Of a DNA stretch of 64,000 nt, positions 15,901 to 20,560 are shown one piece after another. Positions within the stretch are counted from its first letter, which is position 1, and each line of letters begins with the position of its first letter. The notes under the pieces are model-generated. The model saw nothing but the letters and a program-made list of their open reading frames with translations, searched no databases and was not told the DNA's origin. The translations under genes were made by a program, and so were the position numbers. Origin of the DNA: Chrysoperla carnea (lineage: Eukaryota > Arthropoda > Insecta > Neuroptera > Chrysopidae); NCBI RefSeq assembly GCF_905475395.1, contig NC_058338.1, positions 36,462,935 to 36,526,934 on the forward strand, written 5' to 3'.

Positions 15901-15925
15901 TTAGTTAAATAGTGAATAAAAGGGT

Positions 15926-15931
15926 ACATAC
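15926..15931 (-). other. Cbl: Splice donor of Cbl exon 1
   Basis: On the minus strand the exon ends ...AATAG followed by GTATGT, a consensus-like donor. The exon stops in phase 2, just after NNFGN. This is where homology to vertebrate Cbl (FG-x-x-x-VPW) would have to continue in the next exon. Confidence 0.85.
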
Positions 15932-16482
15932 CTATTTCCAAAGTTATTTTTCCAAAATTCAGCAGCATCCGATTTCGTGATACGAAATTGATCACCAGTA
16001 AAAACACCACTTGGGAAAATTGCTTTTAATTCACTTAACATATGACTAAACACTAAACTGAGTTTTGTTAAATTACGTCTATAATGTGAATTTTCATCGA
16101 ACATTTTCTCTTTACCTTCTTTAAACAATTTAATTGCTTGTTTACATTTTCGCATTAAGTTTATAATAAATATGTTAAAATGTTCGTTCGAATGTAGCAC
16201 AGCCATTCGATCCTCATATTTCGAATAAATTAAACGTAATCGTTGATAAGTATCAGGTAATATATCTAAAATAAACGGTGGTGAATTCTTTAAATTCATC
16301 TTTTGATGTTGACATAATTTTACAACTTTATCCATTAATTTCCACGTTTTATCTAATGTACGTTTATCGGTTGCTAATTTCGGTTGTGTCATTACATCGG
16401 AAAATGCACCATGCAATTTTGAGAATATATTTGATGTGAAGTTTTTATGTTGTACGGGCCGATTACCACGACTGGTGGCCAT
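15932..16482 (-). CDS. Cbl: Cbl E3 ubiquitin ligase, first coding exon (partial)
   Basis: Cbl proteins are RING E3 ligases that bind phosphotyrosine on activated receptor tyrosine kinases through the N-terminal TKB domain and ubiquitinate them for down-regulation. This exon encodes 183 residues plus two bases. It covers a short basic N-terminus (MATSRGNRP...) and then the four-helix bundle of the Cbl_N domain, from about residue 40 to the exon end. Family hallmarks are [54 protein letters not shown] and IFPSG.F.GD.FRITK.DAAEFW. The ATG at 16482 is the only start in the exon and opens a typical Cbl N-terminus. The reading frame continues a few codons past the donor and stops, as expected for intron. 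The EF-hand, SH2, RING and proline-rich regions are missing and must be encoded at lower coordinates, outside the window or unrecognised. Identity is clear; completeness is not. Confidence 0.95.
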
Positions 16483-18134: not shown

Positions 18135-18164
18135 ATGAAAACTAAATGCCTAAACCTTACATAG
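18135..18164 (+). promoter_or_regulatory. Upstream ORF overlapping the CMC4 start
   Basis: An ATG 11 nt before the CMC4 ATG opens a 9-codon ORF that ends TAG at 18164, 16 nt inside CMC4 in another frame. Its start context is poor (T at -3), while the CMC4 ATG has AAA before it. Leaky scanning past it is therefore plausible. If used, it would reduce CMC4 initiation and could favour reinitiation downstream. It matters only if the transcript starts upstream of 18135. Confidence 0.45.
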
Positions 18165-18411
18165 ATCCTTGCAAAAAATTTGCTTGCAGAATACAAAAGT
18201 GCTTGCAAGGTAAATCGTTTTTCTTTTCAAATACTAGAAAATTAAATTCAAATTGTGTTTTTTTACCCATCTAGAACATAACTTCCAAGAAGACCGTTGC
18301 CAATTAGAGATCGAAGAACTACGGCAGTGTTGTGTTAAATGGAAAAGTGAATCAATTTGTTGCTCGGGAATCGACATACCTCCAAAAAAAGAAGAAGCCC
18401 CGGAACAATGA
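18146..18411 (+). CDS. CMC4: CMC4, twin-CX9C mitochondrial protein (two exons)
   Basis: CMC4 is a small cysteine-rich protein of the mitochondrial intermembrane space, imported and oxidised by the Mia40 relay. Exons 18146-18209 and 18275-18411 join in phase 1 to give 66 residues. It opens MPKPYIDPCKKFAC, and CRIQKCLQ follows. C9/C19 and C30/C40 each enclose nine residues, giving the twin CX9C hairpin. The extra cysteines C14, C41 and C50/C51 and the CCSG motif near the end match the CMC4 family and no other CX9C family I know. Length matches animal CMC4 (about 68 aa). The gene is easily missed because neither exon is long. The stop TGA shares its TGA with the next start (ATGA at 18408). In humans CMC4 is also expressed from a shared locus with MTCP1. 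Confidence 0.93.
18210..18274 (+). other. CMC4: 65-bp intron in CMC4
   Basis: Donor G/GTAAAT at 18210 and acceptor TTTTTTTACCCATCTAG ending at 18274. Removing it restores the twin-CX9C frame exactly. This is the only intron seen in the four-ORF block. Confidence 0.92.
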
Positions 18412-18602
18412 AAGAACGTACAGTATTGAAAAAAAGGTCTTGGGCACAACGTAATCCACGCGCATTTTTTGCAATATTCGCTACAACAAGCTTATTAATT
18501 TTATACTCACGACCAATTTATGATATATTCATCCGTGAAGATTACGACACATATAAAAAACGTATGGAAAAGGAGCGATTAAGTAAACAGTCAGCAGAAT
18601 AA
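18408..18602 (+). CDS. Single-pass membrane microprotein, 64 aa, unidentified
   Basis: I do not recognise this protein with confidence. It has a basic N-terminus (MKERTVLKKRSWAQRNPR), one hydrophobic segment at about residues 19-33 (AFFAIFATTSLLILY), then SRPIYD and a charged, probably helical C-terminus (about residues 39-64). The layout resembles small mitochondrial inner- or outer-membrane proteins of the SMIM20/MITRAC7 or PIGBOS1 type, which also have one membrane segment, a P-[IVL]-[YF]-like turn and a lysine/glutamate-rich tail. That is resemblance of layout, not proof. The start at 18408 overlaps the CMC4 stop as ATGA and has A at -3. A longer in-frame ATG at 18357 lies inside CMC4 coding sequence and is less likely. 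The next ORF starts 3 nt after the stop. Context with two mitochondrial CX9C proteins favours a mitochondrial role. Confidence 0.85.
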   Translation: MKERTVLKKRSWAQRNPRAFFAIFATTSLLILYSRPIYDIFIREDYDTYKKRMEKERLSKQSAE

Positions 18603-18605
18603 ACT

Positions 18606-18803
18606 ATGGAATCAGTTAAAAAAGCACATAAACGTTTTCGTAATTATCCCGTTTTATTAACTGAATGTAGGAACGAAGCTTCAGAATATGCTGCGTGTGT
18701 TTTAAATAGTGGTGGAATTAAATATCAAGAATGTGCTAAAGAATTTACTAATTTTAAGAATTGTATTCAAAAGGCTGCAGCTAAACATAAGACTAAACTA
18801 TAA
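18606..18803 (+). CDS. NDUFAF8-like twin-CX9C complex I assembly factor, 65 aa
   Basis: A small CHCH/CX9C protein with C21-x9-C31 and C43-x9-C53, the second helix reading ECAKEFTNFKNC. The basic N-terminus followed by a short helix (RFRNYPVLLTEC), the Y-x-x-C spacing and the CAREF/CAKEF-type second helix fit NDUFAF8 (C17orf89). NDUFAF8 is a mitochondrial intermembrane space or matrix-facing partner of NDUFAF5 in early complex I assembly. Human NDUFAF8 is similar in size (74 aa). The start has A at -3 and G at +4. It lies 3 nt after the preceding stop and 3 nt before the PIG-M start. Other small CX9C families are possible, but cysteine spacing and flanks agree best with NDUFAF8. Confidence 0.82.
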   Translation: MESVKKAHKRFRNYPVLLTECRNEASEYAACVLNSGGIKYQECAKEFTNFKNCIQKAAAKHKTKL

Positions 18804-18806
18804 AAG

Positions 18807-20162
18807 ATGGAAGCTTTAACCAAATTTATTTCATTACCTTGTAAATACCATTTAATTATTGGATTTATAATTCGATTATTCCTGATTTATTATGGCGAGT
18901 ATCTTGATGAAATTTCCGAAGTTCCTTACACTGATATAGATTATAAAGTATTTACAGATGCAGCAAGGTATGTATATAACGGTCAATCTCCGTATGACCG
19001 ACACACATATCGGTATAGTCCTTTAGTTGCCATATTTCTGATACCAAATATAACTCTTCTCCAAAGCTTTGGTAAAATTTTATTCTCTTTGGTTGATATA
19101 ATTGTAGGAATCATAATGTATCAAATTGTCATGGAATATTTGAAGAATACAAATATTTTTGTTTCGAAGTCGTATAATTATAAGTACTACGCAAATTGTT
19201 CAATGTTATTGTGGGTTTACAATCCAATGTCAATTATAATCGCAACGCGAGGAAATGCAGACTCAATAGCTGCATTTCTAGTTTTAACAACATTATACTT
19301 ACTTTATGTAAAACGGAATTATTTCTTAGCAGGTATTTTACACGGATTTGCATGTCATTTTCGAATATATCCAATTGTATTTAGTTTAGCAATGTTTATG
19401 CACTTGAGTAAATATAATGTTTCATACTTTAAGAAATCGGAATCCAATGAATTAATGCTAAATTCTAACAAAGAAATTATTAAATCAGGGCAAAGAGAAC
19501 CGAAAAAACGTACAATATTTCAAAAACGATTTTTATACTATTTAATACCAAATTTTGATCAAATTAGTTTGATAATCGGGACTATTTTAACATTTGGGAT
19601 CCTAATTGGCGTATTTTACCATTTATACGGATATAAATTCCTTTATGAAACATATATTTATCATGTTGTTCGAAAAGATCCTCGCCATAATTTCTCAATC
19701 TATTTCTATTTACAATATCTAACTGCCGATATTAAAAATTTAGGTATCTGGCATAAAGTATTAATGATATTACCAAATTTAGTATTACTTTTGGTAATTT
19801 CAATACGTTATGGATTACACAGAGAATGTTTATTCTTTTCCATATTTGCACAAGCTATGATTTTAGTAAGTTATAATACAGTTATGACGTCACAATATTT
19901 TATATGGTTTTTATCGATATTACCATTAATTATATGGCATTTACAATTAACACGAATGCAATGGATAAAATTAGGTTTAATGTGGGTTATTGGACAATTA
20001 GCATGGTTATTACCAGCGTACGTATTAGAATTTAAGGGGCATAATACATTCTTGTTTATATGGCTACAAAGTGTAGCGTTCTTTTGTGCAAATATTGTTA
20101 TTCTTAGTCGATTAATTAAATATTTTACTCCTATTATTGTTAATATCAATAAAGTAGATTAA
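18807..20162 (+). CDS. PIGM: GPI mannosyltransferase I catalytic subunit PIG-M, 451 aa
   Basis: PIG-M adds the first mannose, from dolichol-phosphate-mannose, to GlcN-acyl-PI on the lumenal side of the ER during GPI-anchor synthesis; it works with PIG-X. The protein is polytopic with many hydrophobic segments. Conserved blocks are YTDIDYKVFTDAARYV, containing the lumenal DXD-type motif D43-I-D45, YRYSPL, RGNADS (148-153), RHNFS (293-297) followed by YFYLQYLTA, TSQYF (361-365) and LPAYVLEFKG.NTFLFIWL near the C-terminus. Length fits the family (423 aa in human). It is a single uninterrupted exon, which is unusual for a gene of this size but common for PIGM. The ATG lies 3 nt after the NDUFAF8-like stop with AAG before it and G at +4. 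A loop at about residues 210-245 is basic and less conserved. Confidence 0.96.
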   Translation: MEALTKFISLPCKYHLIIGFIIRLFLIYYGEYLDEISEVPYTDIDYKVFTDAARYVYNGQSPYDRHTYRYSPLVAIFLIPNITLLQSFGKILFSLVDIIVGIIMYQIVMEYLKNTNIFVSKSYNYKYYANCSMLLWVYNPMSIIIATRGNADSIAAFLVLTTLYLLYVKRNYFLAGILHGFACHFRIYPIVFSLAMFMHLSKYNVSYFKKSESNELMLNSNKEIIKSGQREPKKRTIFQKRFLYYLIPNFDQISLIIGTILTFGILIGVFYHLYGYKFLYETYIYHVVRKDPRHNFSIYFYLQYLTADIKNLGIWHKVLMILPNLVLLLVISIRYGLHRECLFFSIFAQAMILVSYNTVMTSQYFIWFLSILPLIIWHLQLTRMQWIKLGLMWVIGQLAWLLPAYVLEFKGHNTFLFIWLQSVAFFCANIVILSRLIKYFTPIIVNINKVD

Positions 20163-20560
20163 TTAGTTTGTCTATTCAAATTGTTGTTATTTTTAATTTG
20201 TTTTTATTTACTGTTTTTGGTTAACTGAAAAGTATTCAGCTTGGATTTTTACATGATTCGTTGAATTCATGTCGAAGTTTTGATTGATTATTGAGACGCT
20301 CCTTAATTCAACAATTCCTGAGCTGAAATTTTGTTACTATGTTGTCTGATAATAAGAAGAGTTAATGCAATAATCTCATTTAAATTGCCTCAATTAAATT
20401 GTGGTTGGAAAAAAGTCTTCATTTTTTTTTTACTAAACATTTGCCCGTGATGAAATGTCGTTGTACTTGCTTATAAAATGCGGTAACCAGAAACAGTTAA
20501 ATAAAATTTAGCTAATATTATTATTTTATTATTTTTATCCTCTACTTATATTATATTTTA
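20163..20560 (+). terminator. 3' UTR and polyadenylation signal of the four-ORF block
   Basis: After the PIG-M stop the first AATAAA on the plus strand is at 20500-20505, followed by T-rich sequence. It would end the shared transcript about 340 nt after the last stop. No AATAAA lies at the junctions between the four ORFs. Confidence 0.6.

Follow-up and report, generated by a model that had tools for sequence, protein, structure and literature searches.

Results

We analysed a 64,000-nucleotide stretch of insect genomic DNA (contig NC_058338.1, positions 36,462,935 to 36,526,934; hereafter the window), at positions 18146 to 20162 of which four open reading frames (ORFs) encode a CMC4 homologue, a membrane microprotein, a twin-CX9C protein and the glycosylphosphatidylinositol (GPI) mannosyltransferase I PIG-M. 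As an earlier, sequence-only reading of this DNA had stated, the four ORFs are intact, lie head to tail on the + strand and are joined by an ATGA overlap and two 3-nt gaps, with a single intron, so the operon-like layout that it described holds. ORF1, the homologue of CMC4 (p8MTCP1), consists of coding exon 1 (18146..18209), a 65-nt GT-AG intron in phase 1 (18210..18274), predicted from the reading frame together with the CMC4 match, and coding exon 2 (18275..18411), which ends in a TGA stop at 18409-18411. The start codon of the 64-aa ORF2 (18408..18602) shares the 4-nt ATGA overlap at 18408..18411 with that stop. The intronless ORF3 (65 aa; 18606..18803) follows across the junction TAA-ACT-ATG, and the likewise intronless ORF4 (PIG-M, 451 aa; 18807..20162) across TAA-AAG-ATG.

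Signals that might bear on expression are found both around and within the block. The AATAAA that had been reported after the last ORF is present at 20500..20505, 338 nt past the PIG-M stop, and is a candidate poly(A) signal; a further AATAAA lies at 20148, inside the 3' end of PIG-M. Taken literally, the claim that the junctions leave no space for poly(A) signals was mistaken, as an AATAAA hexamer at 18598..18603 (+ strand), a candidate internal poly(A) signal, spans the ORF2 stop. At the ORF3/ORF4 junction, directly 5' of the PIG-M ATG, the + strand carries the TATA-like sequence TATAAAAG (18799..18806). Nor does every start have A at -3, as had been claimed: in ORF1 (CTAA|ATGC) the base at this position is T. 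ORFs 2-4 do have A there, and ORFs 3-4 also have G at +4.

The products were identified by family searches, cysteine spacing and hydropathy. The spliced ORF1 product (66 aa) matched the Pfam family CMC4 (PF08991; E 2.4e-17, 63.4 bits against a cut-off of 28.9), and its cysteine pairs at 9/19 and 30/40, each with nine residues between, form a twin CX9C motif. ORF4 matched Pfam PIG-M (PF05007; E 9.1e-70, 235.9 bits, cut-off 23.4). The cysteines of ORF3 (21, 31, 43 and 53) have the 9-11-9 spacing of a twin CX9C protein; its matches to Pfam CHCH/CX9C-type families were all below cut-off, and those to PDB sequences were weak, mostly to CX9C subunits of complex I (best E 0.36). The CMC4, twin-CX9C and PIG-M identities proposed from the sequence are thus borne out, while the label NDUFAF8-like fits ORF3 in size and cysteine spacing only. 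ORF2 carries a net charge of +7 and a single hydrophobic segment, in which residues 19-37 are the best stretch of 19 (mean Kyte-Doolittle value 1.49). Searches for ORF2 in Pfam and PDB sequences, both up to E 10, and in NCBIfam, up to E 0.01, gave no match. PIGBOS1 was considered for ORF2 and rejected: against an approximate human PIGBOS1 query, the score of 30 had P 0.054 in full shuffles, and it did not stand out (P 0.36 and 0.52) once shuffling was done in blocks so as to preserve the pattern of hydropathy. In searches of the whole genome (559,487,470 bases in 337 contigs, the window lying within the 100.7-Mb contig C2), which score only candidates from a loose first pass, each of ORF1, ORF2, ORF3 and ORF4 matched its own place and no second copy was found.

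The case that the small ORFs are coding was examined against chance. At the composition of the window, 64 successive codons of any one frame are free of stops with probability 0.0044, before any requirement that the ORFs abut, and ORF2 lies within 4 nt of its neighbours on either side. A codon score trained on PIG-M and on the coding exon of a neighbouring Cbl homologue was compared with 2000 sampled flanking non-coding windows, none of which reached ORF2, whereas 2% reached ORF3 and 75% reached ORF1. The score is therefore uninformative for ORF1, and the case for this ORF is carried by its Pfam match; for ORF3, the value in its own frame (0.075) was exceeded by that in one reverse frame (0.164).

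We counted AUG triplets along the spliced sequence. Starting at ORF1, a ribosome would meet nine of them before the AUG of PIG-M; A stands at -3 in four, which include the starts of ORF2 and ORF3. Out of frame, ORFs 1-3 contain six AUGs (counting the ORF2 start) as compared with 9.8-9.9 in synonymous shuffles (P 0.004 with 2000 shuffles, P 0.008 with 3000), or five compared with 9.0 when the ORF2 start is left out (P 0.003). AUG had the lowest z of the 64 triplets in ORFs 1-3, and PIG-M had 19 out-of-frame AUGs, against 19 in its shuffles. Folds of 100 nt around the three junctions were no more stable than their shuffles (z +1.72, -0.25 and +1.99), that at the ATGA overlap (z +1.72) being weaker than them; for three stretches within ORF3 and PIG-M, folded for comparison, z was +0.26, +0.96 and +0.52. 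At the gathering score, Rfam had no matches in the window.

A locus of the same composition has been described in Drosophila; here and below, statements about the papers cited refer to those of their passages on which we draw. Transcript FBtr0071680 of CG9865, a putative mannosyltransferase, carries three conserved upstream ORFs (uORFs): uORF1 of 65 aa, a homologue of p8MTCP1 (CMC4), uORF2 of 84 aa, and uORF3 of 76 aa, with a twin CX9C motif (Hayden & Bosco 2008, PMC2276209). Their ratios of non-synonymous to synonymous substitution (Ka/Ks) of 0.12, 0.07 and 0.04, respectively, denote purifying selection, and the most distant expressed sequence tags were from D. willistoni for uORF1, Aedes for uORF2 and Acyrthosiphon for uORF3 (PMC2276209). 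This third ORF, known as "group 8", is followed in arthropods by a putative mannosyltransferase, but land plants and nematodes have the group 8 small protein before unrelated main ORFs (Hayden & Jorgensen 2007, PMC2075485). Arthropod group 8 proteins have 65-69 aa with the spacing C-9-C-(11-15)-C-9-C and no introns, and the human one has 74 aa (PMC2075485). ORF3, with 65 aa, spacing 9-11-9, one exon and the PIG-M ORF next to it, falls under this definition. The human group 8 protein is presumably NDUFAF8. By contrast, fly uORF3, at 76 aa (PMC2276209), lies outside the 65-69 aa range (PMC2075485). In the fly the order is presumably uORF1-2-3, 5' to 3', judging from the numbering together with the position of the group 8 ORF directly before the main ORF. 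The gene symbol CG42497, a guess for the fly uORF gene, was dropped, as nothing linking it turned up.

Considering these similarities, we are highly confident that the block is orthologous to CG9865, the four-ORF PIG-M locus of Drosophila, and belongs to an insect that is probably not dipteran. Elsewhere in the genome, a TERT-type RNA-binding domain (E 5.2e-13; locus L098, G000:C4:16343644-16344015) lies in a 714-codon open frame, and the pattern (TTAGG)5 has 458 overlapping matches compared with two for the reversed pattern. Flies are not known to have telomerase or TTAGG repeats. The insect is therefore probably not a fly, and the whole four-ORF block is probably older than Diptera.

Two further observations concern the telomeric features themselves. 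As the TERT RNA-binding domain is found inside so long an open frame, the telomerase gene may be intronless here. Short (TTAGG)n arrays are scattered in the interior of the chromosome-size contig C1 (L009, L010 and others); the places listed, all on C1, are part of the 458 matches, and interstitial telomere repeats and telomere-targeting elements are both candidates for their origin.

Other features of the window and genome were recorded. On the + strand, an upstream AUG opens a 9-codon ORF (18135..18164; T at -3) that overlaps the ORF1 start out of frame; it would matter only if transcription starts 5' of it, in which case it adds one weak AUG before ORF1. A coding exon of the Cbl homologue, with its ATG, lies at 15901-16482 on the - strand (Pfam Cbl_N, E 2.4e-55). 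It and the block are arranged head to head, about 1.7 kb apart, and the two may have a promoter region in common or promoters next to each other. Of ten other ORFs in the window, nine had no match at E 0.01 and one had a weak, sub-threshold match to DUF6353 (E 0.00083). A scan with a bacterial-type sigma-70 promoter model, which is inapplicable to an insect, returned five sites where 5.0 were expected. Searches for relatives of the window's PIG-M in GTDB and IMG/VR contigs, aimed at contaminating insect DNA, gave 17 and 1 pattern matches, respectively, with no relative among them. Finally, a 140-Mb insect contig contains a bacterial-type gene for cytochrome oxidase subunit I (532 aa; L005, G000:C1:138884626-138888966; NCBIfam CtaD_CoxA, 710.9 bits); among the 80 relatives kept, the closest, from Rickettsia tamurae, is 95% identical. 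The gene may have been inserted from Rickettsia, or symbiont DNA may have been joined to the contig.

Discussion

Our preferred explanation is that the block is a CG9865-type orthologue, transcribed into one mRNA and translated by scanning ribosomes, and taken as a whole we regard it as likely. Judging from the sequence, a single mRNA very probably begins 5' of 18146, is spliced to remove the 65-nt intron and has its 3' end near 20500-20530, and there is a good chance that all four proteins are made from it. For their translation, leaky scanning past ORF1 combined with stop-start reinitiation at the close junctions is about an even bet. The weak ORF1 start would often be skipped, leading to initiation at ORF2; after each upstream stop, ribosomes would then restart at the AUG that touches the stop or lies 3 nt beyond it, and so reach PIG-M stepwise. 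In such a mechanism the output of PIG-M would be low and set by the three ORFs before it. Scanning is favoured over internal entry by the unstructured junctions and, by analogy with sloth1/sloth2 (PMC9681215), by a weak first start followed by stronger ones. Reinitiation or leaky scanning had also been proposed in the sequence-only reading; this is plausible and is strengthened by the weak ORF1 start, while the support expected from a shortage of AUGs did not survive a stricter control.

Several observations weigh against this explanation or parts of it. Leaky scanning alone would have to carry ribosomes past the nine AUGs that precede PIG-M, including the four with A at -3, which is why we combine it with reinitiation. 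A spacing of 3 nt is itself unfavourable for reinitiation. Moreover, the longer a uORF, the less reinitiation follows it, with a steep drop in plant protoplasts beyond 34 codons (PMC2276209), and Crosby et al. (2015, PMC4528330) judge that most dicistronic pairs of the fly fail scanning rules and that use of internal ribosome entry sites (IRESs) may be common. When shuffles also kept the dinucleotides at codon borders, the five out-of-frame AUGs were set against a mean of 5.6 (P 0.49); as this control varies little (minimum 5), it neither supports nor disproves AUG avoidance. The effect in plain shuffles came mostly from ORF1 (P 0.02, compared with 0.56-0.57 for ORF2 and 0.14 for ORF3). With regard to orthology, ORF2 is matched to fly uORF2 by position only, the lengths being 64 and 84 aa. 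With regard to age, neither TTAGG nor CCTAA occurred twice in succession in the five readable 3-kb contig ends examined (from three contigs; a sixth end reads N).

Other ways of expressing the block have to be weighed, and the likelihoods we assign to them are not exclusive of those of the separate layers of the preferred explanation. The most serious, although on balance doubtful, is that transcription units overlap: a long RNA would exist, but the bulk of PIG-M protein would be made from shorter mRNAs driven by a TATA-less internal promoter within ORF2 or ORF3, and the bulk of the small-ORF proteins from mRNAs that stop at the AATAAA at 18598. Besides this hexamer, the known fly loci lend it weight, for among 159 dicistronic loci 45 have the dicistronic mRNA only, 45 have monocistronic forms of both genes and 69 of one (PMC4528330). 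Yet the putative promoter DNA would be coding, and the TATA-like TATAAAAG at 18799 would start RNA about 30 nt downstream, past the PIG-M ATG; a shortage of AUGs in ORFs 1-3 would oppose it too, had it not failed the stricter control. We consider internal ribosome entry at ORFs 2-4 quite improbable. Crosby et al. suggest that it may be commonly used among polycistronic genes of the fly (PMC4528330), but here the junctions are too tight to house an element without drawing on coding sequence, the junction folds were not more stable than their shuffles and Rfam gave no match at gathering score, results which bear on structured elements rather than on unstructured, A-rich ones.

The remaining alternatives question the small proteins themselves. 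Just as improbable as internal entry is that the small ORFs serve chiefly as regulatory uORFs damping PIG-M, with peptides that are incidental. They have been named conserved peptide uORFs, and regulation of the main ORF has been discussed for them (PMC2276209); however, ORF1 belongs to the CMC4 family, ORF3 retains its four cysteines, the fly Ka/Ks values are far below 1 for all three (PMC2276209), and no second genomic copy of the small proteins was found. Damping of PIG-M may nonetheless be a side effect. That chance or the assembly produced the arrangement, ORF2 being no gene or the block a retrocopy or a mis-join, is hardly credible: ORF2 does lack a family match at the thresholds used, but ORF1 has kept its intron, the block is single-copy in a 100.7-Mb contig, ORF2 stands out in codon score, and Drosophila also lists an ORF between the CMC4-like and twin-CX9C ORFs.

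The question arises as to what keeps such different genes together. Two of the products are of the twin-CX9C type, a family whose members undergo oxidation in the mitochondrial intermembrane space; a third is a membrane microprotein, and PIG-M is an enzyme of the endoplasmic reticulum. The benefit of linkage would probably be shared low expression of the housekeeping type rather than a shared pathway, and it may be this expression that holds the genes together. The account given for group 8, a stable transcriptional fusion of once separate genes (PMC2075485), appears to fit the linkage best.

The arrangement is already published, for Drosophila CG9865 (PMC2276209) and, as the pair of uORF3 and mannosyltransferase, for arthropods (PMC2075485). 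The view that a tetracistronic set of this kind is unusual therefore has to be given up, since the same ORFs are on record for CG9865 (PMC2276209) and D. melanogaster has two tetracistronic loci (PMC4528330). The locus is an ordinary orthologue of a known one and reveals no new kind of system; what it adds is modest, namely the likely pre-dipteran age of the full block and an anatomy suited to scanning-based translation. It offers a test case, by comparative genomics and reporters, for the translation of third and fourth cistrons in insects, and annotation pipelines that allow one coding sequence per mRNA would presumably overlook three small proteins. A bolder proposal, which we think unlikely, is that a four-cistron eukaryotic mRNA goes back beyond the separation of flies from the other insect orders, has stayed whole with almost no spacing and is translated by serial stop-start reinitiation, ribosomes passing through ORFs 1-3 on their way to PIG-M; if true, it would represent a natural operon that needs neither trans-splicing nor IRESs.

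Among known systems, CG9865 is the closest, with three small ORFs, a CMC4 homologue first and a twin-CX9C protein third, followed by a mannosyltransferase, and with a first ORF of nearly equal length (65 aa, as compared with 66 aa here); it differs in uORF2 (84 vs. 64 aa here) and uORF3 (76 vs. 65 aa here). Group 8 (PMC2075485) agrees with ORF3 in length, cysteine spacing, lack of introns and the PIG-M ORF that follows, although the passages of that paper treat a single small ORF rather than a set of four. At the human MTCP1 locus p8MTCP1/CMC4 likewise shares a transcript, in this case with the p13MTCP1 ORF, so that the partner of CMC4 is not PIG-M (from PMC2276209). In the literature searched, CG9865 turned up in two papers, in one of them just as an entry in a gene list. 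A literature search pairing PIG-M with CMC4 gave no match, and the passages of the fly Poly-Ribo-Seq paper PMC4359375 and of the fly small-ORF paper PMC11674832 hold nothing on the locus.

The sloth1/sloth2 pair, where results with a reporter speak for leaky scanning over the 5-nt gap between the ORFs (Bosch et al. 2022, PMC9681215), resembles the block in having small membrane proteins on one mRNA, a near-zero gap, a weak first start and a strong second one. It differs in having two cistrons, paralogous mitochondrial products and no large enzyme ORF, and in having had its translation tested with a reporter (PMC9681215). The polycistronic genes of FlyBase provide the broader frame: 159 loci of D. 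melanogaster are dicistronic, 7 tricistronic and 2 tetracistronic, small proteins are over-represented among polycistronic loci, and stop-to-start distances run from -34 to 319 nt at those loci whose transcripts are all polycistronic (Crosby et al. 2015, PMC4528330). CG9865 is absent from the main text of that paper, and its passages on the two tetracistronic loci leave them unnamed. The distances in the block, a 4-nt overlap followed by +3 and +3, lie within this range, and from these counts and distances its layout is of a known kind (PMC4528330).

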